Assembly (NCBI RefSeq): GCF_026151205.1
Contig: NC_087073.1
Coordinates: forward strand, 11,439,578 to 11,503,577
From: Bolinopsis microptera
Lineage: Eukaryota; Ctenophora; Tentaculata; Lobata; Bolinopsidae
DNA length: 64,000 nt
Direction: 5' to 3'
Shown: positions 1-57,049 of the stretch, piece after piece
Layout: each line of letters starts with the position of its first letter
Numbering within the stretch: the first letter of the stretch is position 1
Notes under the pieces: generated by a model
Told to the model about the DNA's origin: nothing
What the model saw: the letters and a program-made list of their open reading frames with translations, nothing else
The model's database searches: none
Made by a program: the position numbers and the translations under genes

Positions 1-165
1 AAAATGGTAGAAAATTTGTAAAAATAAAGCCCTTTGTAATATATAACACGGTCAACTAAAAATGGCATATCATAAATTGAATGATAATTAATCACTCTAC
101 ACTCGACTGTCATGTGACTTTTTTAACACGTTCTCATGGTGGCCCTGATATGAATGACTATTCGA

Positions 166-246
166 AACCCTAACCCTCTAATCTGATCCCAGCCCTAACC
201 CTAACCCAATCCCTAATTGAAGCATATGCTGAAACCCTAACCCTAA
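166..246. repeat. Degenerate CCCTAA telomere-like repeats (left)
   Basis: Several CCCTAA units in short clusters separated by non-repeat DNA. The mirror copy is at 56797-56879 in the other arm. Units are few and degenerate with unique sequence on both sides, so this is interstitial and not a chromosome end. The adjoining 247-420 resembles the flank of the right-arm MITE at 54856-55229, suggesting that both belong to one transposon family carrying these units. Confidence 0.7.
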
Positions 247-802
247 GGAGAAATTGGACCAACTTCCTTTTATGGTAATATCACGTTATCGAGACAGTTT
301 TCACTGATATCTCGCCAGGGGAGCATTTTCACCCTATGTCATCGGGTTATTTCGGAATCAGCGTCCGAAAATACATCTATTCAGGTTGGTTTCAACTGTC
401 GGGGGACCTTTTAGAAAAATCTCGAAGATCGAGTCTATATACTAAAGTTATTTAGCACGCTCGTCATAATAAATAATTAATTCACTTCACAACAATGAGC
501 AGTTCAGGCCCTCGTCCATCAAACACTCCTCAACCTTTTATGATCTCAGGATGTTGTTTTTAGTAAACTGACACAACAAAACAACATATAATATAAGCAT
601 GCCATGATTAGATATGAAACACATCTAAAACTCGAAAGTCGTTTTAATTAGTGGAATGTTGCTTTAACCCTCGCTTTTTAAATGTTATTATACAATCAAT
701 AATACGGTTTGTGTATATTTGAGAAAATATGAGCGGCATAGGTATTTATTTAGATGTGTGTAATTTGAAGGAAACATGTACAATGCAAATATAAAATACA
801 AT

Positions 803-2810
803 TATTATATTATAAAACAGGATCTTACCGACAAAAATGATTCTTAAAAATACCTTAATGCGGTAAACTGTACCCTTGAAAAAGATTTTCCCAACATCTG
901 TTGCATGCAGCTATATCTCTAATTTCGTTCAATTCATGCAAGTTGTCCATTTGCAAATTTCTACTACTTAAATCACTTCTTAAAACCGATAACAAGTTCA
1001 TTCTAGGTCTCCCCAATCTACCAATGAATAAATTGTCTGATTCAATAGCAAAAGAGAGAGCCGTTTGGGCTGGGGTGTTCTCCATACTCCTGAGAATGTG
1101 TCCAAACATCTTCCACCGCTGGTGTTCAATACGCTTGGATAACTTTTCAACTTTGCACCTTTCATACAATGCTTTGTTGCTTATCATACCTTTAGGCCAT
1201 TTGATGTTTAAAATGGACCTGAGGTGTCTACGATGGAGTGTGTCCATTTTTTCCATTGTTGCTTTCTTAGGACTCCAACTATTTGAGTTGTAAATCAATA
1301 CAGATACAACTTGAGCATCGTATAACCTCAGCTTTCTTTCAAGGGAAATTTTCTTACCGGACAACCATACTTTTCCAAAGTTCTTAAAAGCAATCTCAGC
1401 TAGGATTCTCTTTCTTTGAATGTCCTTCTCAGTACAGAGTAAGGAACCTAGTGACTTGTTACTTCGCCATGGTTCGTTATTAGCTAATGGCTGACCGTTT
1501 GTGTCTTTATCAGATTTTTTCGCCAGGTAGAAGGTACTGAATTCAGTTTTACTTTCATTTACTTTGTCAGGCTGTTGTTGAGCACAAAGAGATGTGAGAC
1601 CATAACTGTTGATGATTCTGAAATTCTTATTACTACCACCCTTGAGAGGAAAACAAAAATCAATATACCCAACTCTATCAGAGATCTGTTTGAAAGTTGT
1701 GATGAAAGGTTGCAGTTTAGGGCTAATAACAAATCCAATACCCCCATGACATTGTTCTTTCTAATCAAAAATTAACAGTCTGTAGTTGTTGTGAAGTATG
1801 ATATCCACCTGATTAATGCACTTAGTTTCTTGTAGTCCCACAATGTCCATACCGTACCTTTTGCAGTCATTACCCAGTAACTCCCTCTTTAAAAGTCGTT
1901 CAGACCGAGTTTTATCATTAACCGCAGTGTCTGGACTACCCAAGCCCCTAACATTCTAAGAACAAACAGCGAAAACAAATAGCACAGCACACAGTGTTGA
2001 TCCCATCTTGATTTTGGGCGTAGACTCTCCAGCCATAGCTGTATGTGGGTCGTCACTCCTACATTCTACCTAAAAGAGAATAGAATAGAGTAAAACAAAG
2101 TATTTTAGTAAAACAAAGTATTTTATTTATTAGCAGTGCAATCAATTCATATGATATAATTATAAGAATATAATAGTATGTCACACCTATTTAACTGTTA
2201 CGTTTGAGTAGTCGTGCCTTGGCTAAATCTAACTAGGACCAGTGGTGTCGATTAACATTTAATAGGTGAGTCTAAGTGACACAAATGGAAAATTTTAAGA
2301 AAAGACGGATCAAAACACAGATCCAAGGACAAGGAGACCCCACTGCAGGACCATACATGCTATTGGCTTGTGCATGGCCCAAAAAGGTTCCAGTTGTCCA
2401 GGAAACTGTACGTACTGGTCAACTAGTTTTGAATTTAGACTAGGCTTGATTTGTTCTGGGGTTTCTAGAGGTAAGATTTGATGGTGCCAGGTTTGTTCAG
2501 GCGGACATGGAAATTATGCGATGAATATATAGGTATATAAAAATCATATCAATATAAAAATAGATCCAAAAATAGATCCAAAGATTCACACGGCAGTCAG
2601 GGAACTTCCAGACAGGATGCTTTTGAAACAGGTATAATTAGCGCTTTTGTAATTAATTGTATGCAAGGGATGGGAATTGGGATGCTGATCAACTAAGCTG
2701 GTTCAATGCCCCAGCTATTTAGGGGGAGCCACTCAATTTCACGCCCAGGTGTTGTCAATTGCTGGGTTTCGAGAGAATAGAATAGAGAATATTAGAATAT
2801 AAAATACAAT
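803..2810 (-). mobile_element. Internally deleted LINE insertion (left arm only)
   Basis: The right arm has an uninterrupted site near 56250-56270. Here about 2 kb is inserted and flanked by a perfect 15-bp duplication AATATAAAATACAAT at 788-802 and 2796-2810. The minus strand encodes the start of an endonuclease domain and the tail of a reverse-transcriptase ORF, with the rest missing. A long, variable target duplication fits a non-LTR retrotransposon. The half at 1990-2790 shows no coding sequence that I recognise. Confidence 0.8.
855..1943 (-). pseudogene. LINE endonuclease/RT tail, internally deleted
   Basis: Read on the minus strand, the 1943-1761 piece contains an endonuclease-like stretch (GMDIVGLQETKC). 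After a frame change, 1735-855 is open for about 290 codons. It runs through GGIGFVISPK and RIINSYGL, then jumps to NESKTEF, LGSLL and a tail with RRHLRSILNIKWP and WKMFGHILR. In intact elements the first blocks belong to the endonuclease and the last lie just after the RT catalytic YADD block, so the RT core has been lost by deletion. It is a dead fragment. The exact clade (RTE, CR1 or similar) is not resolved. Confidence 0.75.
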
Positions 2811-3540
2811 GCAAATAAAAAATAAAAATGATAAAACTTGAGCTAAAACGACACATTGCATACATGCACAGTAAATAAATCGAACAAGTAAAACAAAATT
2901 TAAAGTAAAACAAAATTTAAATTTTATTGCCATAACAATGAACAATTATATCATAATAAATATACGTAGACATCCGATAATAAACTTGTTACATCCAGTA
3001 CAACCCAAGATGTCAGTAGACTAACAAAATTTTTTTTAAAAGCTAGCATGTTCATAGTTTTTCTAACGAGCATACTTAGGCTGCACGGAAATAGCTTTAA
3101 TTCTACGTCATATTAAAAACTTTACATCATTTTTGCATTGAAAATAATGTTAACTTTAAATGGATCACTATGCAATGAAACACACCAGTTGTTACAAGTA
3201 ATTATCAAACCCCACAGACAACAGGTTTGTGGCACATACTGAAATTAAATATAACACAATTAGAATATATTATATCGACTATCATAAATATATTAACCAA
3301 ATATATAGCAATTCACAATCTCCTTTTCTTTCTTAAAAAGGCTTTGAAAGATTTATAATATTAACTATAAAATAAAGGTGTCACAAGAAAGACTATAATC
3401 TTTCCAAATATAACTTCTCTCTTCATGAATACATGCACAACATGTAATAGAAAATCGTTCTAAACGAACACATTAAATAAATCATAAATACCAATATATT
3501 CACTAATTTTAACTTCTTTAAGTTTCACATTATTAAGATT
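2811..3540. other. Arm sequence with no recognised feature
   Basis: AT-rich sequence shared with the right arm (about 55535-56250, inverted). I see no coding exon, RNA gene or repeat that I can name. Confidence 0.5.
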
Positions 3541-3615
3541 ATTAAAGTCTTACATATATATATGTAAGCCTCTTGATTATATATACAATATCAAAAACTT
3601 TGATTACAATGTTTA

Positions 3616-3905
3616 TTATTGGAATACAATTCTAAACAGTTCATTGTCAAATTCTCCTGACGACAATACCTCCCGGAGCAGTGAAGTTGGAGCTCCAGCT
3701 TTGGCCAAACGGCAAACAAACTGCAAGCTGTTTCTTAACGGGTGATACTCGTAAAATATCTGTTCCATATATTGGACCGTCGACGAGTCCAACTCGGCGC
3801 GCGTCCTGGTACTGGTAGGTTGTAAACCTACAAGCTGTTTCTTGCCATCAAGTTTTCCAAATAACATGATCTCGATCTCACTCAGCTGAGCTTGCAAATG
3901 GACAT
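3616..3905 (-). pseudogene. Short ORF of unknown, probably retroelement, origin
   Basis: About 94 codons open on the minus strand, beginning MQAQLSEIEIMLFGKLDG. Only the first 18 or so residues have a counterpart in the right arm near 54790-54850. There the reading continues, around a MITE insertion, into a piece resembling a copia-type RNase H. The remaining left-arm sequence is unrelated to that and I do not recognise it. Probably a rearranged transposon remnant. Confidence 0.3.
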
Positions 3906-3937
3906 GCAGTAAATAAAATTACATTTTACATTATATT

Positions 3938-4005
3938 CTACGGTCCTCTAGCTCTGATTGGCTAATTAGCCAATCAGAGCTACATAAAAGGACCGTAGAA
4001 TATAA
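3938..4005. repeat. Short palindromic element
   Basis: TACGGTCC followed by an inverted repeat built on AGCTCTGATTGGCTAATTAG, then GGACCGTA. It can fold into a hairpin. Also present in the right arm near 54695-54770, so it predates the arm duplication. Confidence 0.55.
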
Positions 4006-4104
4006 TGTAGAATAAAATAATTTAAATATTATTTTAACCATAAACCAGAGCGAGCGTTTATCGTAATTATTAAATAAAATGACGATGAGAATCACAACGT
4101 GAGA

Positions 4105-4620
4105 CAGCATTGTATCACGTCGTAACCCCCACGGTCGTTTCACTATCGTTCGCGTTCTTACGATACACTATACAGGGGAGCCGCGCACTCGTGCGCGGCG
4201 GGTCATACAGCGTATGACAAAGACAAAAAACGTGGTAAATCACTTATTACGCTTTATTTTTATAATATTCTTCTTTATGTTTTTCTTTATCATTTATGTT
4301 TATAAACTATCAAAATTCGCGCCAAGTTACGTTCGTCGACGGTCTATTGAAATATATTTCGAATAATATTTGGAACAAATACTTCACGAGTTTCTTTACT
4401 GGGCCGCGCTCAGCCTGTCATTCCGCCAAATCTTTATTCGTTAATGAACATAATAGCCTGGGGTCCTCAGGTAAGAGTTTCTCTAACCAAAGCCCTCTCG
4501 CTTGCAGTAGCGCGCAACCGCCGTATTCTACTTGTGAAACAAGCGCGTCACGCAGTACGTAAAGACACATGGCTATGTGAACTTCACGAGTACCACCCGT
4601 TATATAATAGGATTCTTTTT
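4105..4620. mobile_element. MITE-like remnant with GC-rich hairpins
   Basis: Contains a hairpin-rich block around GCCGCGCACTCGTGCGCGGC and GTCATACAGCGTATGAC. The right-arm version at about 54106-54585 keeps both ends, with inverted CCCCCACGGTCG/CGACCGTGGGGG termini; this copy has lost most of one end. No protein that I recognise is encoded. Confidence 0.5.
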
Positions 4621-4849
4621 TAAAAGACGGCCCCGACAGTTAAAACTAATTTCAATCGATTTTGACCATTGTTAATAGTCTGGCCTGGATCGGGCCATAA
4701 TATTTCGAGAAGAAAGCGGCGCGCGCTACTTCGAAGAAATTTAAATTTATTTATTATTTGCCACATATTATCAACAAGTTTTAAAATCGCATGAAGTTAA
4801 GTTTAAAACTGATACCCTGATTACTGATAAAGTCTAAAACTGATACCTT

Positions 4850-6480
4850 GGTAAAATCATATGAATTTTGCCTGTAAAAGTTGATTATATCTTGATGTCA
4901 ATTAACATCGTAAGCTTTTGAAATTAGAATTAATTAAATGAGTCATAATACTTCACACAATATTTACACACAATATGATAATACTAATACAGGAAGTCTT
5001 TCTTGGATTCGACATTGAACTTTTCTCGGTCCCTGCACTGGAAAGTGGAACTGATCCTTTAAAGAAGTCAGCAGGTTCTGATTTAGGTACCCTGGTTTTC
5101 GGATCGCCATGTCTTCACAAGCAAGGTGTCTAATCTTCGTTGCCAAAAGGAATTTGTTGCCAGAGGAATATTTTCGTCAAGATAGGATTTAAATCAGGTC
5201 CTTATAATTTCTTTATGACTTGTCAGCTATAGGATAAGCATTGATGAGGTCCAATAATTCCTTCATAGCTCGTCACTGACAGGATCATTATCAACGATAT
5301 CCAATTATTCCTTCATAGCTCGTCACCAGTCACTGACAGGGTCACCGATCACTATTAATAAGGTCTGATGATTTCTTCGTGACTAACGAGGTACAGTAAT
5401 CTTTTACTGATACGTCAAGCCAAGTTAAGTGAATAACTATAAATATCCAAGCATTAGCTAACAAAATAGCATCTGGTTCTTATTCCTTTACCAAGTTATC
5501 TTTTCTGTAAACTGATCTTCTTAAAGCTGAAGGACTGATTCCCTCTCCAGTCTCCAAGATGGAGAATATTTGTTAAATTCTTGTAGTATTTATGAAGAGG
5601 TGACATTCTCCACGGTATGCTTGCGTTCTTCTGTATGCCATAGCTGCCATATTCCCAATACTCGAACAGCTCGTTCTCGACAGTGACAACAGCAGTATAC
5701 AAATTCACAAACTGCTCATTCATAAACATCAGTCTCCGGAATGCGACTTCATTTTAAGAGAGCTTGGAAAAGGGCAAATTCCGGGCCCAGTAATGTTTGT
5801 TTTCACTAGCATTGTAATGCAAGAAATTTTGCAACACAATGCAACCAACGAAGTTGTTCTTACCTCTCACAGTTCCAGGGTGTGAAGACGTGGAATCCAA
5901 GAAAGGTTTTCTGTATTTTTTCATATTGCGTGTAATATAAATATTGTGTGTTAAGTATTATGATTCATTTAATTAATTTTAATTTCAAAAGCTTACGATG
6001 TTAATTGACATCAAGATATCAACTTTTACAGGCAAAATTCATATGATTGTCGTTTTAAGGATGAAATAATGTGTCTAGAGCTCTGAATCTGTGCTACTCT
6101 AATATAAATGGTAGGAAAAGGTTAACTTTAGTTGAAGTCTCATGTCTCTACGACCTTTACTGAGCAATGGTTGAGACGCGACCGCGCCTTAAAATGGAGG
6201 CGCAGAGACATGTTGATGCTAAGGTCGTAGAGACATGAGACCTTGAATAAAGTTAACCTTTTTATCACATTTATATTACACTCCATTACTTTCGGGACCC
6301 TATCTAGACGTTTAAAGGTCAAAAACGGCAATTTTAAGAATTTTACCTGTATAAGGGCCTCGAAAAATATAAGGGCGTGGCCCGTTGGTCTAGATTCCGA
6401 TAGAGTTGAGCCACAAAATTTTTCAATGCAGTTTTTTAGCCAAGGCATCAACTAATAAGATTGGACCCAGAGCGATTGGA
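4850..6480. mobile_element. Foldback element with long inverted repeats
   Basis: About 120 bp near 4853-4975 recurs inverted near 5920-6045 (shared block ATGAATTTTGCCTGTAAAAG). An adjacent hairpin at about 6130-6260 is built on TCATGTCTCTACGACCTT and its complement. The interior (4980-5900) encodes nothing recognised. The same design and related sequence recur at 32542-34765, so this is a family. It lies where the two arms differ strongly, so its empty site is not clean. Confidence 0.6.
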
Positions 6481-7067
6481 TCAACTTCGGTTTTTATGAA
6501 CCAACATACTATTCAGTATACATCCCGTGTAATGTTTAATCTATACAGTATACATCCCGTGTAACTCCTTCAATTCGGTGCCAGAGAAACCCGGTGATCA
6601 GCAGTCAGATCAAGCATCGAGGCGGTGTTTTAACACATAAACTATTGTATCCGATTGTATGTTACAGTAACAATTAACGTAAATCGTAAATCGCTGGCTG
6701 TGGTGACAGATAACAGGTACAAATGTAATACTAAGCAGCGCGGCATTAACTTTCGGCAATGACAAGTTATTACTGTGAAAAAACGCAATTCAATCAACAT
6801 TCAAACGAAATCACATTGTAATATCGTCAATGTGAAATGTAAAAGTGCACACCCCATTTGCCTTGTCAACCTATATCTACATAAGTTAGCATTAGGCTTT
6901 GAATATTATATTGGATTGTTTTTATTCCAGTTTTGTTATAAATATATATTATCCAGCATAAAATTAAATCGCAATTTTTTTTAATTGAGTTTCTCTTCAT
7001 AACCCACGATATAATAGTTATGCACCTCATGATTAAATTGTTATCGGTTCTTGTCATTTTAGTTATT
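6481..7067. other. Upstream region of left ATPase gene
   Basis: Probable 5' region of the ATPase gene beginning at 7068. Arm homology runs from the gene out to about 6690. No promoter motif can be assigned. Confidence 0.3.
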
Positions 7068-8013
7068 ATGGGCAGAGGAGAATATTACAAGAACAGATAT
7101 GGTAGAGGAAGCCGAGGGGGACGTGGTCAACGATCTAACAACTCACATCATTGCAGGTTTTGTTTTTATCATGATTCTGACAGAAAATTTATCTGATTTT
7201 GTGTCATTTGATTGGAACCAGTGTAATGTGTATACAAAAAAATCTTATGTTAGTATGTCACGGTTTGAGTGTGCTTCGAAACTAAAATATAATAATTTCC
7301 GATAAGCAGTTTCTGACAGTTTCTGACATTTTCACTAACTTCACCCCAATCTTATCCCAAGGGATGAATGTGGAGATGACAAAGATAATCATGCTCATCC
7401 TAACAAAAGAGAAAACAAATTCTCTAACAGACAAGAGTTAAAAAACATACTGTTGGATTTGGATAGAAAACCCTACAACTTTTACAAGGATCTCTACGGT
7501 AATTAAAGATAACTATTAAAGATTATTTTATGACTTGAGCTTCTTTCTCCAGGTTACTTGAGCTCTTGTTAGAATCAATATAGATATGTATCACCAAAAC
7601 ATTATCATCCAAGGAGGCATAATAACAATAACATATTATTTTCAGGGTTTACCTTTGATTTTGAAAGGATCTTCAGTCTTAAGTTCGATCATGTGCAAGG
7701 AGATCCATACGCCTCTCCCTCTAGAATATGTGTCACTCTTCCCCTCCAAAATGTAAGATGTAAGACATGGCCCATTCTCAATTTTTCAGTTTATCCACCC
7801 ATTTATGATTAAGCTCTTAAATCAAGTGGCAGGTTTGTGTAATTATAATGCAGGTATATAATATATATATCTAGTGTAATATTTGCACAATATTTCAGAG
7901 TAGGTTCCCAGATTGGTCATGGTCAAACAGTACTCGCACAGTTGCCCTTGCTGACTACATTTGTCGCAGGACTGTCGGTGCTATATCTGATCAGAAGGCT
8001 GACTACAAGGCAC

Positions 8014-8378
8014 GTAAGTGACACTATAAATTATAGTCACTATAATACTGGTTTGTTTTTGTCTCCTGTAAACAGAATTCACAAGTTATGAATAACTGCA
8101 ACTGGTATTTCTCATCTTTAAATTTTGTTTACTTTACAGTTTACTTACTTTGCAAGGCTATCATGAGCAGTAATTTAGGGTCATGACTCATGATTATATC
8201 ATTCTAACAGCTATCTGAAATGATTGATTTTGCTGAATAAATCAAAATTTTACATTTTTAATTAAAATAATTCTGTCTAGGCATCGACTACTGATAAGTG
8301 AAAATATACATTATACATACTTCTAATAATCGAATCTAAAAAGTTGCTGCAGTAAGATTTAAGCTCAGTTCTATTTTA
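8014..8378. other. Intron sequence between ATPase exon 4 and MFS gene
   Basis: Starts with a GTAAGT donor. No further feature seen. Mirrored in the right arm at 46962-47326. Confidence 0.4.
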
Positions 8379-9833
8379 TCAAGTGAGTTCTACACCAACA
8401 GTTTCTCTCTTGAGTCCCATTAAACAAAACACAAACAAGAGATTTGTGGCCTGTATGGCAACAAATACCAGTCTCACACCCTCATTAAACAAGAACTCTG
8501 AACACAGGATACCTATTATCCCCCCAGTTCTGTTCGCTGTAACTAAAACACTTATCATAAACGATCTGATAACAGTTGGTGAATATTCAGCGATCAAAAT
8601 AGGAGACAACAATGCTGCTGCAGCTATAGCCATGCGCTGTAACAGGAGGAACCAGAACAACCAGGACCTATTAACACAGAAATATAGTGTCGTTGGGAGC
8701 AGAACTGCCAACAAGCCCACTCCAATTGCTGGTTTTATTCTCCCAAACTTTTCAATGGCAAGAAGCATGAGGATAACACCCAGGGGCTCTGATAAGCTGA
8801 CTATACTAATATCAAACAGTGTAGCATTGTCAAATAAACATGTTCTTTCAGCTGGAACAAGTGCTCCAGTGCAATACCCCTCATTTAAAACTCTGGGCAT
8901 CGTGTAGGTACTTATATAATATGAGAACACGCTTGTCAAGCCTGAGAGTAAAAGTAACACGGAGTTGGAAATGTTTTCAGTTTGCTGGAGCAATCTGTAG
9001 ACCATGCTGCAGCTAATGTTTAAATCGTGCACTTCCACTGGTGGAGCTCTCTTCAGTCTGAATTTCACATCCCCTTTACCATTCATCTTGTAAATTTTCC
9101 TAATAGTAATCTCAGCCTCAGTCACGTTACCCCTGTAATACTGGAACCTTGCTGACTCCCTGATCACAGCAAAAAACACTATGCACGGAGAGAAGGCAAG
9201 AGAAGTGGAAATTACCAGACCTCTCCACCCAAAGTCATTCAGAATCAAGTAAGCCATACATCCAGTAACTGAAGCTCCTATACCCCAAGGTAAGGAGAGG
9301 CCAGAGAAAGCAAGAGCACGGAATTTATTGGGTGTAACCTCTCCACTCAGAGTGACAGTTGGCCCGGTGCCCAGACCAACAAACACTCCTGTTATCAAGC
9401 GAAGGACTATAAACTGCCAGTAGTTCTGCACGAAGGCGCACAATATCGCCGCTGCTGTGACTCCGACAGCTGAGATCAGAGATATGCGTTTTCTCCCGAA
9501 TCTGTCTCCAAATGTGGAGGTTACCAGTGGTGTTATCAGCATGGTGATCATAGTGCTGATCTGGAGACCTGATAGAGCGGCAGAGGAGAGGTTCCATTCA
9601 CACCTCAGTATTGGTCCTATTATTGTGAGGAGGACTATCTCTGCACCCTCCAGCGCACAGAAGAAGAATGTTCCAATTGTGTAGAGTAAAGTGCCCCACC
9701 CACATGTTGAGCCGTCCATTGCTTCATTTATATCTAGCTCAATTTCTTCAGCCTCTTTATCAAAATCTTCTCTTAACTTTCTCTTCTCATCTTGCAAGAT
9801 CTTGGTTCTCTGATCTTGGTTCTCTGAACTCAT
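8379..9833 (-). CDS. MFS transporter, SLC22/SVOP-like (left copy)
   Basis: Uninterrupted 484-codon gene with about twelve hydrophobic segments, predicted to be a membrane transporter of the Major Facilitator Superfamily. The N-terminal 40 residues are charged and cytosolic. MFS motif A appears as GDRFGRKR (109-116), the sugar/SLC22-type linker as RESARF (225-230), and the second half has the SLC22-like EYSPTVIRSF. Substrate unknown; SLC22 organic-ion carriers and SV2/SVOP vesicle proteins are the closest families I can suggest. It lies antisense in the ATPase intron between exons 4 and 5. It differs from the right copy at about nine residues, including GIGASVTGC against GTGASVTGG. The ATG is the first in-frame one, and related copies share it. 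Confidence 0.9.
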   Translation of the reverse strand: MSSENQDQRTKILQDEKRKLREDFDKEAEEIELDINEAMDGSTCGWGTLLYTIGTFFFCALEGAEIVLLTIIGPILRCEWNLSSAALSGLQISTMITMLITPLVTSTFGDRFGRKRISLISAVGVTAAAILCAFVQNYWQFIVLRLITGVFVGLGTGPTVTLSGEVTPNKFRALAFSGLSLPWGIGASVTGCMAYLILNDFGWRGLVISTSLAFSPCIVFFAVIRESARFQYYRGNVTEAEITIRKIYKMNGKGDVKFRLKRAPPVEVHDLNISCSMVYRLLQQTENISNSVLLLLSGLTSVFSYYISTYTMPRVLNEGYCTGALVPAERTCLFDNATLFDISIVSLSEPLGVILMLLAIEKFGRIKPAIGVGLLAVLLPTTLYFCVNRSWLFWFLLLQRMAIAAAALLSPILIAEYSPTVIRSFMISVLVTANRTGGIIGILCSEFLFNEGVRLVFVAIQATNLLFVFCLMGLKRETVGVELT

Positions 9834-10264
9834 CCTGGTTAAGATAGGGAGTGGTGTAATTCAACTAGACTCAACTTTAACAAATTTTATGGGCTGGTAA
9901 AGATTAATCTACCGGATTAACAATTATCTATCTTATTGGTAAAATTTGAACGGTAAAGATGTTAGAGGTAAAAGGCACTATTGAGCCACCAGGGCGAACA
10001 AATTTGTGAGTAATTATTAAAATAAGAAGCTGCAGCTATTTTTTACAACAAAGGCATAACAAACACTGGGAAAGACTAGCTCTAATGCGGTATGCATCAT
10101 TTGAAGAATGAGTCTTGAGAACAATAGTATGTTGTATTATCAAACAAACAATGTACATTCATACTTAGTTCTTCTCAAAATTCACATTAGTTCTTCTCAA
10201 AAATGTACACTGCTGATGGTACCAATTGGTCTGTTAGTCATTGTCAAGGTTGATCTATCATTTC

Positions 10265-10440
10265 ACACTAGACTAAACTAAGATTAAACTAAGACTAAGT
10301 TTACAGGACTAAACTAAGACTGGACTAAACTAAGACTAAACTAAGACTAAGTTAAGAGTTAATACTAAACTAAGAGTTAAGGCCCAACTAAGACTAAACT
10401 AAGAGTTAAGACTAAACTAAGAATCAACTAAAACTGAACA
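10265..10440. repeat. Minisatellite, CTAAGACTAAA units
   Basis: Imperfect tandem copies of ACTAAACTAAGACTAA-like sequence within an ATPase intron. The inverted counterpart is at 44870-45075 with a different unit arrangement, as expected for independent repeat-length change. Confidence 0.75.
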
Positions 10441-10685
10441 ATTGCAGGTGGTTCGTGGCATGACGGCAAGGGTGGAGAGCTGAGGATAGAACACCCCTCT
10501 CAAAACATATTATTACGAACATCAGTCGAGGTTACTACTCACCAAACAATGCACAATTTATTATTTTGCGTTATTTAATTTACGATCTAACAGTTCTCTT
10601 GATCTAACGAAATTAATAATACAATTGTGAACTAAGCGCCACAGTTCTTATAAATCGACTATAATGTAGCTTTAGAAATGTTTAA

Positions 10686-15185: not shown

Positions 15186-15193
15186 ATAACAAG

Positions 15194-18775: not shown

Positions 18776-18776
18776 T

Positions 18777-19010: not shown

Positions 19011-19030
19011 TCCTATACCTTACTGACTCT

Positions 19031-45700: not shown

Positions 45701-48271
45701 GATAGTCCTCCTCACAATAATAGGACCAATACTGAGGTGTGAATGGAACCTCTCCTCTGCCGCTCTATCAGGTCTCCAGATCAGCACTATGATCACCATG
45801 CTGATAACACCACTGGTAACCTCCACATTTGGAGACAGATTCGGGAGAAAACGCATATCTCTGATCTCAGCTGTCGGAGTCACAGCAGCGGCGATATTGT
45901 GCGCCTTCGTGCAGAACTACTGGCAGTTTATAGTCCTTCGCTTGATAACAGGAGTGTTTGTTGGTCTGGGCACCGGGCCAACTGTAACTCTGAGTGGAGA
46001 GGTTACACCCAATAAATTCCGTGCTCTTGCTTTCTCTGGCCTCTCCTTACCTTGGGGTACAGGAGCTTCAGTTACTGGAGGTATGGCTTACTTGATTCTG
46101 AATGACTTTGGGTGGAGAGGTCTGGTAATTTGCACTTCTCTTGCCTTCTCTCCGTGCATTGTGTTTTTTGCTGTGATCAGGGAGTCAGCAAGGTTCCAGT
46201 ATTACAGGGGTAACGTGACTGAGGCTGAGATCACTATTAGGAAAATTTACAAGATGAATGGTAAAGGGGATGTGAAATTCAGACTGAAGAGAGCTCCACC
46301 AGTGGAAGAGCAAGATAGAAACATTAGCTGCAGCATGGTCTACAGATTGCTCCAGCAAACTGAAAACATTTCCAACTCCGCGTTACTTTTACTCTCAGGC
46401 TTGACAAGCGTGTTCTCATATTATATAAGTACCTACACGATGCCCAGAGTTTTAAATGAGGGGTATTGCACTGGAGCACTTGTTCCAGCTGAAAGAACAT
46501 GTTTATTTGACAATGCTACACTGTTTGATATTAGTATAGTCAGCTTATCAGAGCCCCTGGGTGTTATCCTCATGCTTCTTGCCATTGAAAAGTTTGGGAG
46601 AATAAAACCAGCAATTGGAGTGGGCTTGTTGGCAGTTCTGCTCCCAACGACACTATATTTCTGTGTTAATAGGTCCTGGTTGTTCTGGTTCCTCCTGTTA
46701 CAGCGCATGGCTATAGCTGCAGCAGCATTGTTGTCTCCTATTTTGATCGCTGAATATTCACCAACTGTTATCAGATCGTTTATGATAAGTGTTTTAGTTA
46801 CAGCGAACAGAACTGGGGGGATAATAGGTATCTTGTGTTCAGAGTTCTTGTTTAATGAGGGTGTGAGACTGGTATTTGTTGCCATACAGGCCACAAATCT
46901 CTTGTTTGTGTTTTGTTTAATGGGACTCAAGAGAGAAACTGTTGGTGTAGAACTCACTTGATAAAATAGAACTGAGCTTAAATCTTACTGCAGCAACTTT
47001 TTAGATTCGATTATTAGAAGTATGTATAATGTATATTTTCACTTATCAGTAGTCGATGCCTAGACAGGATTATTTTAATTAAAAATGTAAAATTTTGATT
47101 TATTCAGCAAAATCAATCATTTCAGATAGCTGTTAGAATGATATAATCATGAGTCATGACCCTAAATTACTGCTCATGATAGCCTTGCAAAGTAAGTAAA
47201 CTGTAAAGTAAACAAAATTTAAAGATGAGAAATACCAGTTGCAGTTATTCATAACTTGTGAATTCTGTTTACAGGTGACAAAAACAAACCAGTATTATAG
47301 TGACTATAATTTATAGTGTCACTTACGTGCTTTGTAGTCAGCCTTCTGATCAGATATAGCACCCACAGTCCTGCGACAAATGTAGTCAGCAAGGGCAACT
47401 GTGCGAGTACTGTTTGACCATGACCAATCTGGGAACCTACTCTGAAATATTGTGCAAATATTACACTAGATATATATATTATATACCTGCATTATAATTA
47501 CACAAACCTGCCACTTGATTTAAGAGCTAAATCATAAATGGGTGGATAAACTGAAAAATTGAGAATGGGCCATGTCTTACATCTTACATTTTGGAGGGGA
47601 AGAGTGACACATATTCTAGAGGGAGAGGCGTATGGATCTCCTTGCACATGATCGAACTTAAGACTGAAGATCCTTTCAAAATCAAAGGTAAACCCTGAAA
47701 ATAATATGTTATTGTTATTATGCCTCCTTGGATGATAATGTTTCGGTGATACATATCTATATTGATTCTAACAAGAGCTCAAGTAACCTGGAGAAAGAAG
47801 CTCAAGTCATAAAATAATCTTTAATAGTTATCTTTAATTACCGTAGAGATCCTTGTAAAAGTTGTAGGGTTTTCTATCCAAATCCAACAGTATGTATTTT
47901 AACTCTTGTCTGTTGGAGAATTTGTTTTCTCTTTTGTTAGGATGAGCATGATTATCTTTGTCATCTCCACATTCATCCCTTGGGATAAGATTGGGGTGAA
48001 GTTAGTGAAAATGTCAGAAACTGTCAGAAACTGCTTATCGGAAATTATTATATTTTAGTTTCGAAGCACACTCAAACCGTGATATACTAACATAAGATTT
48101 TTTGTATACACATTACACTGGTTCCAATCAAATGACACAAAATCAGATAGATTTTCTGTCAGAATCATGATAAAAACAAAACCTGCAATGATGTGAGTTG
48201 TTAGATCGTTGACCACGTCCCCCTCGGCTTCCTCTACCATATCTGTTCTTGTAATACTCTCCTCTGCCCAT
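36548..48271 (-). CDS. Predicted ABC-class ATPase, complete set of exons (right copy)
   Basis: Eleven exons: 48183-48271, 47842-47978, 47588-47694, 47327-47441, 44778-44860, 44394-44512, 44009-44225, 43759-43869, 42613-42835, 40082-40220, 36548-36719. Phases agree throughout, giving 503 residues. Family: predicted ATPases of the ABC class (COG3044/PF09818), cytosolic P-loop proteins of unknown role, common in bacteria. Visible: Gly-Arg-rich start, HVQGDPYASPSR, VGLPAKGR, Walker A GGGFHGKT (312-319), SGSTSQAA signature-like loop, Walker B LMIDED, and GGAGDY. The bacterial N-terminal GSGKSG block is here GGSWHDGKGG, so that loop is degenerate. Introns contain the antisense MFS and GPCR genes. 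Its C-terminus is shorter than that of bacterial relatives. Confidence 0.85.
37480..37770 (+). pseudogene. Hypothetical exon, Cys/Asn-rich (right copy, frameshifted)
   Basis: Mirror of 35228-35566. Same start, but two bases are missing after TASQIT, so the frame ends early at LLLP. A possible preceding exon ends at 37374 (CCCCAG/GTAAGG) and the acceptor GGGCAG ends at 37480. The product is unknown. Confidence 0.35.
38293..39690 (+). CDS. Class A GPCR-like receptor, three exons (right copy)
   Basis: Exons 38293-38440, 38575-38733 and 38861-39690; introns of 134 and 127 bp with GTAAG/CACAG and GTTAG/TACAG borders. 378 residues with seven membrane segments. The Asn of TM1 is formed just after the first splice junction (VVG/LFGLAANS) and the TM2 Asp is in exon 2. 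Intracellular loops are rich in Arg/Lys, as expected for G-protein coupling, but DRY is absent. The gene lies in the ATPase intron between exons 10 and 11 on the opposite strand. The upstream CCCAGCACGTGCAGGTAAG contains a possible 5' UTR donor just before the ATG. Confidence 0.85.
39755..40081. other. Intergenic/intronic spacer between GPCR and ATPase exon 10
   Basis: AT-rich; no gene supported. Mirrors 26032-26355. Confidence 0.4.
41801..42287 (-). CDS. Hypothetical protein, two-part ORF (right copy)
   Basis: Mirror of 15561-16047, with the same ATG (MFNKRSRY) and the same frame change at the possible 43-bp intron. Differences such as M/K and W/R are few. Conservation of both frames in both arms reflects the recent duplication and is not independent support for coding. 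Confidence 0.4.
44870..45075. repeat. Minisatellite, TTAGTTTAGTCTTAG units
   Basis: Inverted counterpart of 10265-10440, in the ATPase intron between exons 4 and 5. Confidence 0.75.
45507..46961 (+). CDS. MFS transporter, SLC22/SVOP-like (right copy)
   Basis: 484 codons, intact, with the same motifs as the left copy: GDRFGRKR (109-116), RESARF (225-230), EYSPTVIRSF in the second half. Around residues 185-191 it reads WGTGASVTGG, as does the decayed third copy (WGLGASATGG), so the left-arm Cys and Ile look like later changes. It lies antisense in the ATPase intron between exons 4 and 5. The ATG follows CTTAACCAGG, which resembles a splice acceptor, so a 5' UTR intron is possible. Confidence 0.9.
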   Translation: MSSENQDQRTKILQDEKRKLREDFDKEAEEIELDINEAMDGSTCGWGTLLYTIGTFFFCALEGAEIVLLTIIGPILRCEWNLSSAALSGLQISTMITMLITPLVTSTFGDRFGRKRISLISAVGVTAAAILCAFVQNYWQFIVLRLITGVFVGLGTGPTVTLSGEVTPNKFRALAFSGLSLPWGTGASVTGGMAYLILNDFGWRGLVICTSLAFSPCIVFFAVIRESARFQYYRGNVTEAEITIRKIYKMNGKGDVKFRLKRAPPVEEQDRNISCSMVYRLLQQTENISNSALLLLSGLTSVFSYYISTYTMPRVLNEGYCTGALVPAERTCLFDNATLFDISIVSLSEPLGVILMLLAIEKFGRIKPAIGVGLLAVLLPTTLYFCVNRSWLFWFLLLQRMAIAAAALLSPILIAEYSPTVIRSFMISVLVTANRTGGIIGILCSEFLFNEGVRLVFVAIQATNLLFVFCLMGLKRETVGVELT

Positions 48272-48665
48272 AATAACTAAAATGACAAGAACCGATAATA
48301 ATTTAATCATGAGGTGCATAACTATCGTGGGTTATGAAGAGAAACTCAATCAAACAAAATTGCGATTTAATTTTATGCCATAATATATATTTATAACAAA
48401 ACTGGAATAAAAACAATCCAATATAATATTCAAAGCTAACTTATGTAGATATAGGTTGACAAGGCAAATGGGGTGTGCACTTTTACATTTCACATTGACG
48501 ATATTACAATGTGATTTCGTTTGAATGTTGATTGAATTGCGTTTTTTCACGGTAATTACTTGTCATTGCCGAAAGTTGATGCCGTGCTGCTTAGCATTAC
48601 ATTTGTACCTGTTATCCGTCACCACAGCCAGCGATTTGCGATTTACGTTAATTGTTACTTTACTA

Positions 48666-50700
48666 TTTGATAATTTATTAGATACGTAGTTTAGTTTATT
48701 TGATATTCATATTTAGTACAGACAGATCCGTATGAAAAAATCGATATACAGACACAAGAAGCTTCCTACGGATTTTTGACGTTTTTGAGTCCCATTATCT
48801 GCCCTTTATGGCTAACCAACTTTTCAAAACTTTTCCGTGTGTGGAACCACTTTTTACCACCTTTCCTGTTTGTCAAATATCACATTAATTCCGAGCTGAT
48901 CATCATGACCCCCAAAAAGATCCTGCGGCAAGAACCTGTCTTTTTGCTTCACAACATCCCAATTCCAAATCAACTTTCTTAATAAAAATTAGTTAGGATT
49001 TCTTGGAAATTGCTTAGATGCTAAGCAATTTCAAAGAAATCCTAACTCTCCTGGAACTGATTTAACTGAATTGATTATTACCGTTTCTTTACTCCCCCTT
49101 GCCCGTATCTAAATCTTACTTTTGCCTGTATCTTACCTTTGCCACTTTAGGGATGATTTGAGGTATCTCACATAGCAAATGAAGCGGCATGCAGTGCAAT
49201 AAAAAATAAGTCACAGTAGATGTTGGAAGGTATGTTTACACTTGCTTCCTAGCTGTTTCTTTTTTTCGCTGGTCTTTTCTTGCCTTCTTCGAGCTTTCAA
49301 TGAGTCATTAGGCCAAGTAGACGTTTTCACGATACTGTTAAATCTCTCTATATCGGGCCTCTCGCGGAGAACGAAAAGTGTACGGTATTAAGGGGACATA
49401 CACCAAAACCTATTTTGCCGGAACCGCGATTTGACTCCATATTATGAAAGTATAGATAAAAACAATAAGATTTGATACATTGAAAAATTTTTTTGAGAGT
49501 ATGCACTTTCAATTTTGAGAAGTCTGTCACTGAATTGGCTGATTTTTTTACTGAACATTATTAACAATCCGTACAAGAAGCCCTCTAAAAGATTATATAA
49601 TTGAACAATAGATGACGAACTTACAAACCGAACAAGGTCGACGAAGCAAAATTGAAATTTTTGCCTACTATTGAAATGAAACGAAAAGTTTCAAAAATTC
49701 TTGTGAGTGTAGCTGATAATCATATCCAACTTTTTGCTGCAGGATTTCTCATAATTTTGAGTTTTAAGGTATGAATTCTGGCCTCAAAGGTCTTAGTAAA
49801 ATTCATGTAAAAAAGGGCCAGAAATGGCAGATTTAAGGCTTAAAATGTCTATATCTCAAAAAGTGTCAGTTTTTTTTAATCAATGTGATAAGACGAAACT
49901 TTTAGTAGGTCAAATAGATGATTTTAGAAGAAAAATAGTCTTAAATAATTTTCTAGCTCAAACACAAATTTTGTGTCTTTAAATATTATAAATTTGGAAC
50001 TAAAAGTTCGTATAAATGTCTATGTGTTTTGTCTGTGTTTGTTTGTCCGTAGTAGGAATTTACTGTAACTTTGGAGACTGGGCGCAGTAATGTCCCAGAG
50101 GGTTTGTAACATCATGGATGCTGACTAAGCTTACCTGATCCTCTCCAACTTGTATTAGTACACTACTTCATTCACACCAGTCATTTCACTACATTAAACT
50201 GATTGAGGTTATGCCCTTTGTACATGCTGAAGCGATATGCTATGATGAGTGGAATATGAGTTAGGATCAGTTTGGTCCGTTTCATGGCAAAAACATTTAT
50301 TGATTGTCTATCCAACCAAAAATTCAGGGTGGGTTTTCTTGAAATTGTTGTTTTGTTGATGAGAGTGGGCGAGAGTTAATGAACAATGTTCTTATCCTTC
50401 GGCAGTCTCCTTCATTTGTGCCGGGGCTGCGGTGGGTTGGGAGTCGTCCATCACCTATTGGATGGTGAGAGGTTTTTATAACTAGCAACTTATGACCACT
50501 GGCTAGCAATGGCTGGAAACAAATTGATCAATGTCAAATTAACTGAGGGCTGAAGGTAGTACTACTGGCCACGCAGCATCCTGCTTATTCTTAATTGTGT
50601 AATTGCATTACATTGTGTGATATGTGGTGTTTATTCATTGAATGTAAACAAAGTTTTTGTTTTATTAGATAATTGATAACCTGGTGGATTACTATTTACC
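48666..50700. other. Right-arm private sequence, no recognised gene
   Basis: Homology to the left arm stops near 48665. A hairpin of about 55 bp built on GTTAGGATTTCTT and its complement lies at 48990-49045. The remainder is AT-rich with only short ORFs that I cannot identify. Confidence 0.4.
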
Positions 50701-50825
50701 ACCCCATAGTATTTGTTGATAGTTCAGTAGATTTGTATTTTGATCATTGACAGGATGAGTTCAGAGAACCAAGATGAGAAGACAAAGTTAAGAGAAGATT
50801 TTGATAAAGAGGCTGAAGAAATTGA

Positions 50826-51293
50826 TTCATCAAAATTCTCTCGAAATTGACTTTGTAGTTGTTTCTGATGGAGGGGAGTGATATCTATCAGCTGTTTTTG
50901 GTCCCATGGAAAAATATTGTTCCTAGCCGAAATTATTGCCGGTCAAAGGTCAGCGCTTATGTGTAATTGTATTGCGCGAGCGATTTTCAATCGCGCGCCC
51001 TGAAAATCGAGTCTAAAAATCTATCTTCTCCTACATTTTTTGAGTAATCACCCTGAAACTTTCAGGATATGTTCTTAGGACCATTTAGAAGAGATTGTCA
51101 GGCCAGAATTTTGAGATAGGCCTTAGAAAATTTTTTATTCAATTTTGAAAATCTTGGACCTGAAAAAATCGTCAAAATACGAGGTCCAAGATTTTCAAAA
51201 TCGAATACAAAATTTTCTAAGGCCTATCTCAAAATTCTGGCCCAACAATCTCTTCTAAATGGTCCTTAGAATATATCCTGAAAGTTTCAGGGT
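50826..51293. mobile_element. Foldback element with 29-bp flanking duplication
   Basis: Two arms of about 125 bp (51037-51162 and 51180-51303) are inverted copies meeting near CGTCAAAATACG. The host sequence GATTTTGATAAAGAGGCTGA plus GAAATTGA is present on both sides (50797-50825, 51294-51322). Such a long duplication is unusual for a cut-and-paste element. Confidence 0.75.
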
Positions 51294-52044
51294 GATTTTG
51301 ATAAAGAGGCTGAAGAAATTGAGCTAGATATAAATGAAGCAATGGACGGCTCAACATGTGGGTGGGGCACTTTACTCTACACAATTGGAAAATTCTTCTT
51401 CTGTGCGCTGGAGGGTGCAGAGATAGTCCTACTCACAATAATAGGACCAATACTGAGGTGTGAATGGAACCTCTCCTCTGCCGCTCTATCAGGTCTCCAG
51501 ATCAGTACTGTGATCACCATGCTGATAACACCACTGGTAACCTCCACATTTGGAGACAGATTCGGGAGAAAACGCATATCTCTGATCTCAGCTGTCGGAG
51601 TCACAGCAGCGGCCACTTTGTGTGCCTTCGTGCAGAGCTACTGGCAGTTTATAGTCCTTCGCTTGATAACGGGAGTGTTTGTTGGTCTGGGCACCGCGCC
51701 ATCTGTCAAGTTGAGTGGAGAGGTTACACCCACTAAATTCCGTGCTCTTGCTTTCTCTGGCCTCTCCTTACCTTGGGGTTTAGGAGCTTCAGCTACTGGA
51801 GGTATGGCTTACTTGATTCTGAATGACTTTGGGTGGAGAGGTCTGGTAATTTGCACTTCTCTTGCCTTCTCTCCGTCGCGTGCATAGTGTTTTTTGCTGC
51901 GATCAGGGAGTCAGCAAGGTTCCAGTATTACAGGGGTAACATGACTGAGGCTGAGACCACTATTAGGAAAATTTACAAGATGAATGGTAAAGGGGATGTG
52001 AAATTCAGACTGAAGAGAGCTCCACCAGTGGAAGTGCACAATAG

Positions 52045-52640
52045 CAGAGGCGGCTATTGAGGGCGTCCAGGCGTCCGTGGACGCCTTAAAATTATTATCT
52101 GGTGGCTGGTGCTTAAAATAGAAATAATAATTAGTAATAGTGTTAGGAAATAACAAATCGCAATATAAAGGTCTTCATTTACTATCATACGTTTTAATGT
52201 AAGCGCACGCATGATCTTCGTGAAATTTTGTGTTGTAGGGAGTCCAATCCTACCTCTGGACTACTCAGCCGCGCAGTTTTAACTCATAGTTAATTGTAAA
52301 CGTTACAAAGCACATCGTGCGCATCCCACTACAGGTAATCTATTATGATTTGCCTCGATTTGGGGGTCCAGGACCCTTTGCAATTCGACTGTTATGATAC
52401 TGCGCGGCTGAGATCGTACACGTGTGGTGTCTTGTTTCACCCATATTATAAGTTTTTGTTTTTGTTTGCTGTCGCCTGTAAAGTGTTACACATTACATTT
52501 ACAAGGCCCTGTAGCTGTGTGTAATGTAATCGGTAGTTTGGAGGGATCAGCTTGAGCCGGCTCCCAAGCCCCCCCTCCCCCCAGGTCCATCGATTGGACC
52601 CCCAACAAAACTGCCAGCCAGCTCCCACGAGCCGCCTCTG
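52045..52640. mobile_element. hAT-type non-autonomous element, CAGAGGCGG ends
   Basis: 596 bp, ends CAGAGGCGGCT/AGCCGCCTCTG, flanked by the 8-bp CACAATAG/CACGATAG (one difference). No transposase. Confidence 0.85.
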
Positions 52641-52983
52641 CACGATAGAAACATTAGCTGCAGCATGGTCTACAGATTGCTGCAGCAAACTGAAAATATT
52701 GCCAACTCTGTGTTACTTTTACTCTTAGGCATGACAAACATGTTCTCATATTATATAAGTACCTACACAATGCCCAGAGTTTTAAATGAGGGGTATTGCA
52801 CTGGAGCACTTGTTCCAGCTGAAAGAACATGTTTATTTGACAATGCTACACTGTTTGATATTAGTATAGTCAGCTTATCAGAGCCCCTGGGTGTTATCCT
52901 CATGCTTCTTGCCATTGAAAAGTTTGGGAGAATAAAACCAGCAATTGGAGTGGGCTTGTTGGCAGTTCTGCTCCCAACGACAC

Positions 52984-53274
52984 CAGTGGCGTAACAAAGG
53001 GCCCTGCTGACCCCGCTGTGCAGGGGGGCGCCGTCTTAGGGGGGGGCGCCAAATCGTCGTTTGAATGTGGGACAATTTTGAAAACTTAACTAAAGTACTA
53101 GCAAAACTGTGCGTTTTGCTCTAGATACACACTTTTTTAGAGATTTTACCGGCGTATCCTCTAAAATCACCTAATTTGTTCAATTTTAGGGAGGGGCACC
53201 AAAAGGGGAAGGGGCGCCAACAGGGGGGGCGCCTTTTCGGCAGGGGGGCGCCAACAGGCAACGTTACGCCACTG
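52984..53274. mobile_element. hAT-type MITE, CAGTGGCGTAAC ends
   Basis: 291 bp with perfect 8-bp duplications AACGACAC (52976-52983, 53275-53282). Same family as 15194-15481 but in opposite orientation. Confidence 0.95.
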
Positions 53275-53734
53275 AACGACACTATATTTCTGTGTTAATA
53301 GGTCCTGGTTGTTCTGGTTCCTCCTGTTACAGCGCATCACTGTCTCTGCAGCAGGATTGATGCCTCCTATTTTGATCGTTGAATATTCACCGACTGTTAT
53401 CAGATCGTTTATGATAAGTGTTTTATTGTTATCAAACAGAACTGGGGCGATAACAGGTATCCTGTGTTCAGAGTTCTCGTTTAATGAGGGTGTGAGACTG
53501 GTATTTGTTGCCATACAGGCCACAAATCTCTTGTTTGTGTTTTGTTTAATGGGACTCTAGAGAGCAACTGTTGGTGTAGAACTCACTTGATGAAATAGCT
53601 CTGAGCTTAAATCTTACTGAAGCATCTTTTTAAAATTGATTGTTATATTAAAGATATACTGTGCATTTTCAATAATGTAATATTTTAGATTTTACCAAGG
53701 TATCAGTTTTAGACTTTATCAGGGTATCAGTTTT

Positions 53735-53851
53735 TTGATTCACGATGTCAATCCTTCGCAGCTCGGTGAGGCACAGTGGTGCATCTCGCCGATCTACCGA
53801 AGAGAAGCATTATTTGATGCGCGCGCGACCCAGTATTGCATCGCGCTACAA
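53735..53851. mobile_element. 117-bp repeat with 9-bp duplication
   Basis: Flanked by ATCAGTTTT (53726-53734, 53852-53860); the left arm has one copy of that target and no insert, near 4800. A second, near-identical copy is at about 55405-55530. The segment GCAGCTCGGTGAGGCACAGT gives a weakly tRNA-like impression but no tRNA fold could be confirmed. SINE fragment or MITE. Confidence 0.7.
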
Positions 53852-54105
53852 ATCAGTTTTAAACTTAACTTCATGCGATTTTAAAACTTGTTGATAATAT
53901 GTGGCAAATAATAAATAAATTAAAATTTCTTCGAAGTAGCGCGCGCCGCTTTCTTCTCGAAATATTATGGCCCGATCCAGGCCAGACTATTAACAATGGT
54001 CAAAATTGATTGAAATTAGTTTTAACTGTCGGGGCCGTCTTTTAAAAAAGAATCCTTATATACAATATATAACGGGTGGTATTCGTGAAGTTCACTTGTA
54101 TCACG

Positions 54106-54585
54106 TGGTGACCCCCACGGTCGCTTCACTATAGTGAAGCGTCTTCGACGCTACAGGGGGAGCCGCGCACTTCGTGCGCGGCGGGTCATACAACGTATGA
54201 CAAAAGTTCACATAGCCATGTGTCTTCGCGTACTGCGTGACGCGCTTGTTTCACAAGTAGAATACGGCGGTCGCGCGCTACTGCAAGCGAGAGGGCTCTG
54301 GTTAGAGAAACTCTTGAAGTATTTGTTCCAAATATTATTCCAAATATATTTCAATAGACCGTCGACCAACCTATTTTGGCGTGCGTTTTGATAGTTTATA
54401 AACATAAAGAAAAACATGAACATAAAGAAGAATATTAAAAATAAAGCGTAATAAGTGATTTACCACGTTTTTTGTCTTTGTCATACGCTGTACGACCCGC
54501 CGCGCACGAGTGCGCGGCTCCCCTGTATCGTTAGAACGCGAACGATAGTGAAACGACCGTGGGGGTTACGACGTGATACAATGTT
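54106..54585. mobile_element. MITE-like foldback, CCCCCACGGTCG ends
   Basis: Inverted ends GACCCCCACGGTCG and CGACCGTGGGGG with inner GC-rich hairpins. The left-arm version (4105-4620) is incomplete. It contains no gene. Confidence 0.55.
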
Positions 54586-54855
54586 GTCTCACGTTGTGAT
54601 CCTCATCGTCATTTTATTTAATAATTACGATATACGCTCGCTCTGGTTTATGGTTAAAATAATATTTAAATTATTTTATTCTACATTATATTCTACGGTC
54701 CTTTTATCTAGCTCTGATTGTCTAATTAGCCAATCAGAGCTAGAGGACCGTAGAATATAATGTAAAATGTAATTTTATTTACTGTATGTCCATTTGCAAG
54801 CTCAACTGGGTAAGATCGAGATCATGTTATTTGGAAAACTTGATGTCATTGTTAT

Positions 54856-55229
54856 CGCTCCTACTAAATCGCTCGCCCAAATTTGAAGAAAATTCTTGTG
54901 AAAAGGCCCTTTGAGTATAAAATTAATCAAAATCGGTGTATTTTTGGACGCTGATTCCGAATCACCCCCATGACGTAGGGTAAAAATGCTTCCCTGGTGA
55001 GTTATGGGCAAAAAACCGTTTTGGTCACGTGACAGGCTAGTAAAACATGAATTCGATTGTTTAGGGCTCGGGTTAGGGTTAGGGTTGTATTAAGGGTTAT
55101 GGATAGCTTCGGGGTTATGGTTAGGGTTAGGGTTGGGATTAGGGTTTATGTAAAACCGTTTTGTACGGGTGCAAAACCATAAAAACCAAAGTCACGTGAA
55201 ATTTTTGGGCGAGCGAATTAGTAAAAGCC
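54856..55229. mobile_element. MITE carrying TTAGGG-like repeats
   Basis: 374 bp, inverted ends around TACTAAATCGCTCGCCCAAA, flanked by the perfect 9-bp CATTGTTAT (54847-54855, 55230-55238). About five GGGTTAGGGTTAGGG-type clusters lie inside at 55064-55146. Without the insert the host reads on through a retroelement frame. Confidence 0.8.
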
Positions 55230-55238
55230 CATTGTTAT

Positions 55239-55330
55239 GACTGATTGTAAGTCTCTACATGATGCTATCCAAACCTCGAAAAATGATGATGACAAGGGAT
55301 TGAGGATACCAATAGCTTGCCTGAAACAGT
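55239..55330 (+). pseudogene. Retroelement RNase H fragment
   Basis: After removing the MITE, the frame reads KLDVIVMTDCKSLHDAIQTS then DDDKGLRIPIACLKQ and stops. This resembles the TDNKSL...KRLRIDIA block of copia-type RNase H. Short remnant, not functional. Confidence 0.45.
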
Positions 55331-55404
55331 GAGTGAACAATAGTGAAATGACAGTTCGTTGGATTTTTAATTGACGATGTCAATTCATGGCAGCTCGGTG
55401 CGGC

Positions 55405-55530
55405 ATTGATTCACGATGTCAATCCTTCGCAGCTCGGTGAGGCACAGTGGTGCATTTCGCCGATCTACCGAAGTGGTTGCGAGAAGCATTATTTGATGCG
55501 CGCGCGACCCAGTAGTGCATCGCGCTACAA
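55405..55530. repeat. Second copy of 117-bp repeat
   Basis: Same sequence and orientation as 53735-53851 with a few differences, including an extra GGTTGC-like insertion. Preceded by a partial further copy (GATGTCAATTCATGGCAGCT). Confidence 0.65.
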
Positions 55531-56796
55531 CTTAATAATAATGTGAAACTTAAAGAAGTTGAAAGAGTGAATATATTGGTATTTGTGATTTATTTAATGT
55601 GTTCGTTTAAAACGATTTTCTATTACATGTTGTGCATGTATTCATGAAGAGGGAAGTTATATTTTGACAGATTATAGTCTTTCTTGTGACACCTTTATTT
55701 TATAGTTAATATTATAAATCTTTCAAAGCCTTTTTAAGAAAGAACGGGAGATTGTGAATTGCTATATATTCGGTTAATATATTTATGATAGTCGATATAA
55801 TATATAATAATTGTGTTATATTTCAGTATGGGGTTTGATAATTACTTGTAACAACTGGTGTGTTTCATTGCATAGTGATCCATTTAAAGTTATTTTTACA
55901 TTATTTTCAATGCAAAAATGATGTAAAGTTTTTAATATGACGTAGAATTAAAGCTATTTCCGTACAGCCTAAGTATGCTCGTTAGAAAAACTATGAACAT
56001 GCTAGCTTTAAAAAATATTTTGTTAGTCTGCTGACATCTTGGGTTGTACTGGATGTATAGTAACAAGTTTATTATCGGATGTCTACGTATATTTATTATG
56101 ATATAATTATTCATTGTAATGGCAATAAAATTTAAATTTTGTTTTACTTAAAATTTTGTTTTACTTGTTCGATTTATTTACTGTGCATGTATGCAATGTG
56201 TCGTTTTAGCTCAAGTTTTATCATTTTTATTTTTTATTTGCATTGTATTTTATATTTGCATTGTACATGTTTCCTTCAAATTACACACATCTAAATAAAT
56301 ACCTATGCCGCTCATATTTTCTCAAATATACACAAACCGTATTATTGATTATATAATAACATTTAAAAAGCGAGGGTTAAAACAACATTCCACTAATTAA
56401 AACGACTTTCGAGTTTAGATGTGTTTCATATCTAATCATGGCATGCTTATATTATATGTTGTTTTGTTGTGTCAGTTTACTAAAAACAACATCCTTAGAT
56501 CATAAAAGGTTGAGGAGTGTTTGATGGACGAGGGCCTGAACTGCTCATTGTTGTGAAGTGAATTAATTATTTATTATGACAAGCGTGCTAAATAACTTTA
56601 GTATATAGACTCAATCTTCGAGATTTTTCTAAAAGGTCCCCCGAAAGTTGAAACCGACCTGAATAGATGTATTTTCGGACGCTGATTCCGAATTAACCCG
56701 ATGACATAGGGTGAAAATGCTCCCCTGGCGAGATATCAGTGAAAACTGTCTCGATAACGTGATATTACCATAAAAGGAAGTTGGTCCAATTTCTCC

Positions 56797-56879
56797 TTAG
56801 GGTTAGGGTTTCAGCATATGCTTCAATTAGGGATTGGGTTAGGGTTAGGGTTGGGATCAGATTAGAGGGTTAGGGTTTC
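56797..56879. repeat. Degenerate TTAGGG telomere-like repeats (right)
   Basis: Inverted counterpart of 166-246. Interstitial and degenerate. Confidence 0.75.
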
Positions 56880-57049
56880 GAATAGTCATTCATATCAGGG
56901 CCACCGTGAGAACGTGTTAACTGTTAAAGAAGTCACATGACAGTTGAGTGTAGAGTGATTAATCATCATTCAATTTATGAAATGTCATTTTTAGTTGACC
57001 GTGTTATATATTACAAAGGGCTTTATTTTTACAAATTTTCTACCATTTT

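Follow-up and report, generated by a model that had tools for sequence, protein, structure and literature searches.

Introduction

Palindromes and large inverted duplications consist of two long arms in reverse orientation around a short spacer. The locus described here lies in the window (the whole stretch of Bolinopsis microptera DNA that was analysed, 64,000 nucleotides in length). It is like a palindrome in having two long reverse arms and a short spacer; it is unlike one in its divergence of about 1.5%, its many private insertions, an outer end that falls at a run of N, and a next block that is duplicated in direct orientation.

False heterotype (haplotypic) duplications, or retained haplotigs, offer another comparison. 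In the excerpts of PMC9516828 consulted, these appear as two allele-like copies on one scaffold, with gaps at the edges and genes doubled or cut. The present locus shares the allele-like copies and the doubled or cut genes, and has N runs at some of its edges that may be such gaps; unlike them, one of its two blocks is inverted and meets its partner with no N in between. The same excerpts describe false duplications elsewhere as mostly separated by a gap, and at times joined through incorrect gap filling. Haplotigs were present in the Canu assemblies of Beroe ovata, according to its authors (PMC11184263, excerpt). The heterozygous inversions of Hormiphora californensis (PMC8527503, excerpt) are, like this locus, a structural difference between two haplotypes, whereas here the two alleles share a scaffold and only one of the two blocks is inverted.

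The B. microptera assembly was made with wtdbg, HiRise, TGS-GapCloser and Purge Haplotigs, and its k-mer genome size is ~254 Mb (PMC10232365, excerpt); a table in the part of PMC11797021 consulted gives 265 Mb in 346 scaffolds, with only 21.1 kb of N, and 13 chromosomes of which the largest has 26.2 Mb. The genome searched in this work comprised 264652675 bases in 232 contigs, the smallest of 10124 bases; shorter ones may lie outside it. Contigs C1-C13, of 15.2-26.2 Mb each, together make up 258070895 bases (97.5%, compared with a figure of 97.23% in a legend within the excerpt of PMC10232365), and C14 is 198 kb.

Results

Two arms in reverse orientation

Comparing the window with itself, we found that the dominant set of inverted matches pairs the left arm (B) in reverse with the right arm (B'), far beyond chance (Table 1). 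The chained alignment holds 11 collinear blocks and 14525 columns, with 220 mismatches (1.54% substitutions) and 251 gap columns, in agreement with the initial annotation, which had paired more than 20 kb of right arm with 36 kb of left arm. Single blocks of this chain range from 0.81 to 4.76% substitutions: the inner ones fall within 0.81-1.83% (1.83% in the 1.4-kb block adjoining the join), and the outer ones (1-4813) within 1.27-4.76%, including values of 2.53% and 4.76%. Unchained blocks of at least 500 columns gave 1.64% over 14297 bases, one of these blocks being the extra transporter copy. tRNA and Rfam matches within the window numbered none.

Table 1. Features of the two arms and of their join. 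Positions are those of the window; I1 to I6 are the left-arm inserts whose edges were read, and a point in the strand column means that no strand applies.
Feature	Position	Strand	Remarks
Arm B	1..36300	-	very probably the second allele (haplotype 2), placed reversed; base 1 directly after the 5000-N run
Arm B'	36745..57049	+	very probably an allele of the same locus; its contig runs on into right flank A
40-bp tandem repeat array, 6.4 copies	36300..36559	.	at the join; from trf and spacer alignment
ABC_ATPase exon, PF09818 positions 222-268	36554..36718	-	E 3e-13; the join adjoins it, inside the gene
ABC_ATPase exons in B'	44284-44063, 43869-43756, 42832-42611 (span 42611..44284)	-	
Exon-like stretch in B'	40206-40081		put with the ABC_ATPase gene by eye only
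ABC_ATPase exons in B	13034-13255, 13449-13562, 14475-14696 (span 13034..14696)	+	
Exon-like stretch in B	25907-26032		put with the ABC_ATPase gene by eye only
MFS transporter ORF in B, 484 aa	8379..9833	-	
MFS transporter ORF in B', 484 aa	45507..46961	+	
Receptor ORF in B, 287 aa	26420..27283	-	
Receptor ORF in B', rhodopsin type	38827..39690	+	Pfam 7tm_1
Interrupted partial extra transporter copy	51294..53645	+	B' only
I1 in B	803..2795	.	15-bp duplication
I2 in B	10686..12688	.	TTAA duplication, matching inverted ends; presumably piggyBac-like
I3 in B, 539 bp	14940..15478	.	target-site duplication doubtful
I4 in B	16120..18167	.	TTAA duplication, inverted ends; I2 family, reversed (94.8%)
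I5 in B	18564..24747	.	DNA transposon, 17-bp repeat-rich inverted ends, 10-bp duplication; nested LINE-type element
I6 in B	28009..34899	.	G/C-run inverted ends, 8-bp duplication

A direct duplicate in the left flank

The comparison was extended to 80 kb on either side of the window, negative coordinates being those to the left of window base 1. The left flank contains a 67-kb block, A' (-72499 to -5000), in direct orientation to the right flank A (64897-102465), of which it forms a second copy. It is enclosed by a 100-N run (-72599 to -72500) and by the 5000-N run whose last N stands directly before window base 1, and its homology with A extends from ~750 bp past the first run to the edge of the second. 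Runs of N thus flank A' and precede B, and none lies where B meets B'. The duplication therefore continues past the window, and position 57049, near which the outer border had been placed, is no border but the counterpart of base 1.

The chained alignment of A' with A (22 blocks, 23169 columns) gave 1.68% substitutions, a low divergence close to that of the arms (1.54%) and such as is looked for between alleles of one locus. The first block (-71747 to -68773 against 64897-67815, 95.5% identity), where a tandem repeat overlaps, is not part of this chain; unchained blocks of at least 500 columns gave 2.69% over 30380 bases, a figure that includes internal repeats of A' differing by up to 18%. 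Single blocks of the two pairs taken together range from 0 to 4.76%. The alignment of A' with A is broken by gaps of the same kind as the insert gaps of the arms, judged without reading their edges, and the first 752 bases of A' have no partner within 57050-66000. The longest run free of substitutions, taken as a test for gene conversion, was 531 bases between the arms and 569 between A' and A; the pattern in the arms does not resemble that of strong homogenisation about the centre, although this test is a weak one.

When B is reversed and followed by A', the order of B'-A is restored, and to judge from their sequence the two together are one second version of B'-A. Copy numbers in the genome were then compared for parts of these blocks and for controls. 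The receptor region, the transporter gene and the 67.7-69.7 kb part of A each have two near-identical full copies, all candidates having been scored. The control at 63000-64000, from the piece between B' and A, had 1 match; the control at 116.0-121.0 kb, beyond A, had 1 full-length match and many partial repeat matches among the best 40 of 213 candidates, in which the best other match was 80% over ~505 bases. These copy numbers are the pattern of two alleles in pieces.

Within A', positions -56103 to -50171 are occupied by a tandem array whose 331-bp units lie in both orientations; the corresponding place in A is without this array.

Genes of the arms and the interrupted ABC_ATPase gene

The MFS transporter differs between the arms at 7 of its 484 residues (98.6% identity) and the receptor at 1 of 287 (99.7%), close to the 98-99.5% first estimated for the proteins. 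The B' receptor matched its Pfam family with E 2.3e-05 and 24.5 bits, below the curated cut-off of 30.5. A PDB search with protein P0004 returned 0 matches.

Homology of B with B' ends at 36300, which is the edge of the 40-bp array; there follow the ABC_ATPase exon and then B', and the edge is sharp. ABC_ATPase exons for PF09818 positions 2-65, 62-100 and 99-175 are present in both arms. Arm B lacks the exon for positions 222-268, which was found once in the genome, both in a DNA search (best 40 of 177 candidates) and in a protein search, in which it was the only candidate. Since this exon lies beside the join and was found once, the join interrupts a gene, and, contrary to the initial annotation, the gene set is not complete in both arms; the broken extra transporter, too, is found only on the right. 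Inspection by eye of the end of the left contig (-80.0 to -72.6 kb) showed only a Rab-like gene and not the C-terminal part of the ABC_ATPase gene.

Private insertions

Between several blocks of the arm alignment an insert lies on one side and a few shared bases on the other, as expected for transposon insertions. Of the six left-arm inserts whose edges were read, five are flanked by target-site duplications, namely of 15 bp, of TTAA (two inserts), of 10 bp and of 8 bp, and have an empty site in B', as allelic insertions would. On the right, private stretches were recognised from alignment lengths with their edges unread, as from 48662 to 53852, where 5189 bases stand against 1849 in the left arm. 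The claim that both arms carry private insertions is thus confirmed for the left arm at the level of target sites and for the right arm at the level of alignment.

The element nested in I5 has an open 1160-aa ORF (20107-23589) with EEP and RT domains, and the whole of I5 was considered as an odd LINE with inverted ends. This was rejected because a relative on C10 is without the middle (I5 positions 426-5356), from which it follows that I5 is a 1.25-kb DNA transposon with the LINE nested inside. The search for its family gave 52 rows from the best 40 of 505 candidates, of which 13 (among them the present copy) span 302-467 bases of the end and 27 span 220-228.

The piece between B' and A (57050 to ~64.1 kb) holds a retroelement at 57855-62745. 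Its 913-aa frame (58424-61165, minus strand) has an N-terminal GIY-YIG domain at residues 59-105, lies between two direct repeats of 1062 bp that are 99.7% alike, and had no RT match at E 0.001. We take the element to resemble the N-terminal GIY-YIG kind of Penelope-like element; a literature search found no paper joining three of the terms Naiad, Penelope-like, GIY-YIG and ctenophore.

Discussion

Retained allelic contigs, misplaced and one of them reversed, very probably explain this locus, which would then be an ordinary assembly artefact and not a real chromosome structure. The main evidence comes from the flanks, where a direct copy of A stands between N runs and has diverged about as far as the arms have. 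In a diploid outbred animal the two alleles of the locus, ~1.5% substitutions apart and differing by many transposon insertions, would have been built by the assembler as separate contigs, and these allelic contigs would have escaped purging. Scaffolding would have set them beside their partner, A' in direct and B in reversed orientation, and the join without N at ~36.3 kb would stem from a later gap-filling step or from a chimeric contig; that scaffolding and gap filling were the cause we infer. Several points speak against retained alleles, namely the join without N, the uneven divergence of the arms, the 2.69% of the unchained A'/A blocks, and the first 752 bases of A' without a partner. 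A further point is that the 5000-N run may not be a true assembly gap, the published total for the assembly being only 21.1 kb of N. The reading does not hang on this run alone, for it is independently carried by the orientation of A', by divergences that are alike, by the 100-N gap and by the gene cut at the join.

A palindrome would be a real inverted duplication that had become fixed in the animal, its two arms sharing a chromosome and aged to ~1.5% with independent insertions. In its favour, the join has a sharp edge and no N, and both arms keep open frames for the transporter and the receptor. A palindrome alone, however, leaves A' unexplained, a duplicate that is not inverted, stands between N runs and differs from its partner about as much as the arms do. 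Moreover, the left arm has its outer end at an N run, though perhaps one that is no assembly gap, and not in continuous sequence, and the join falls in a gene of which one exon was found once. We regard the palindrome as very improbable. Of the two options first offered, the natural palindrome therefore finds no support, and a wrong tail-to-tail join of two haplotypes is favoured by the direct copy, the N runs and the similar divergence. A real complex rearrangement, in which one chromosome would carry, side by side, the 67-kb duplicate in direct orientation, the inverted one of 36 kb and the partner of the latter, with the ABC_ATPase gene broken at a minisatellite, is very improbable. Much the same holds for a heterozygous structural variant, in which one haplotype is truly inverted or rearranged here and the assembly mixes both: large heterozygous inversions have been reported in the ctenophore H. 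californensis (in the excerpt of PMC8527503), but a simple inversion would not bring both alleles onto one scaffold, and A' is not inverted, so that we consider this highly unlikely.

The artefact could also have begun with a fold-back (missed-adapter) read that seeded the join, each side then being extended by the assembler with reads of a different allele. Such a start would account for a contig join without N, but the 1.83% substitutions in the 1.4 kb beside the join would not arise from one molecule unless consensus or polishing had replaced the sequence, and we allow this route a small share of the probability given to retained alleles. A simple fold-back of one molecule was rejected on the same substitutions together with the private inserts; the early remark that private insertions exclude it was sound.

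Retained alleles thus remain the preferred reading, and the locus is a worked example of two alleles mimicking a palindrome. Users of the assembly should be warned that the transporter, the receptor and the ABC_ATPase exons are here counted twice or cut. The k-mer size of ~254 Mb (PMC10232365, excerpt), set against the 264.65 Mb assembled, suggests that there are more such stretches.

Two relatives of the transporter (83%) were found on contig C11, near 806 kb and 965 kb, and on this contig ~805300-808700 and 963700-967100 form a near-identical direct pair 158 kb apart. This pair is a second candidate for retained alleles, with a divergence like that of the alleles here, and could be a true duplication. 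Its 3401-base stretches align over 2499 columns with 33 mismatches and 30 gap columns, the first ~900 bases being unmatched.
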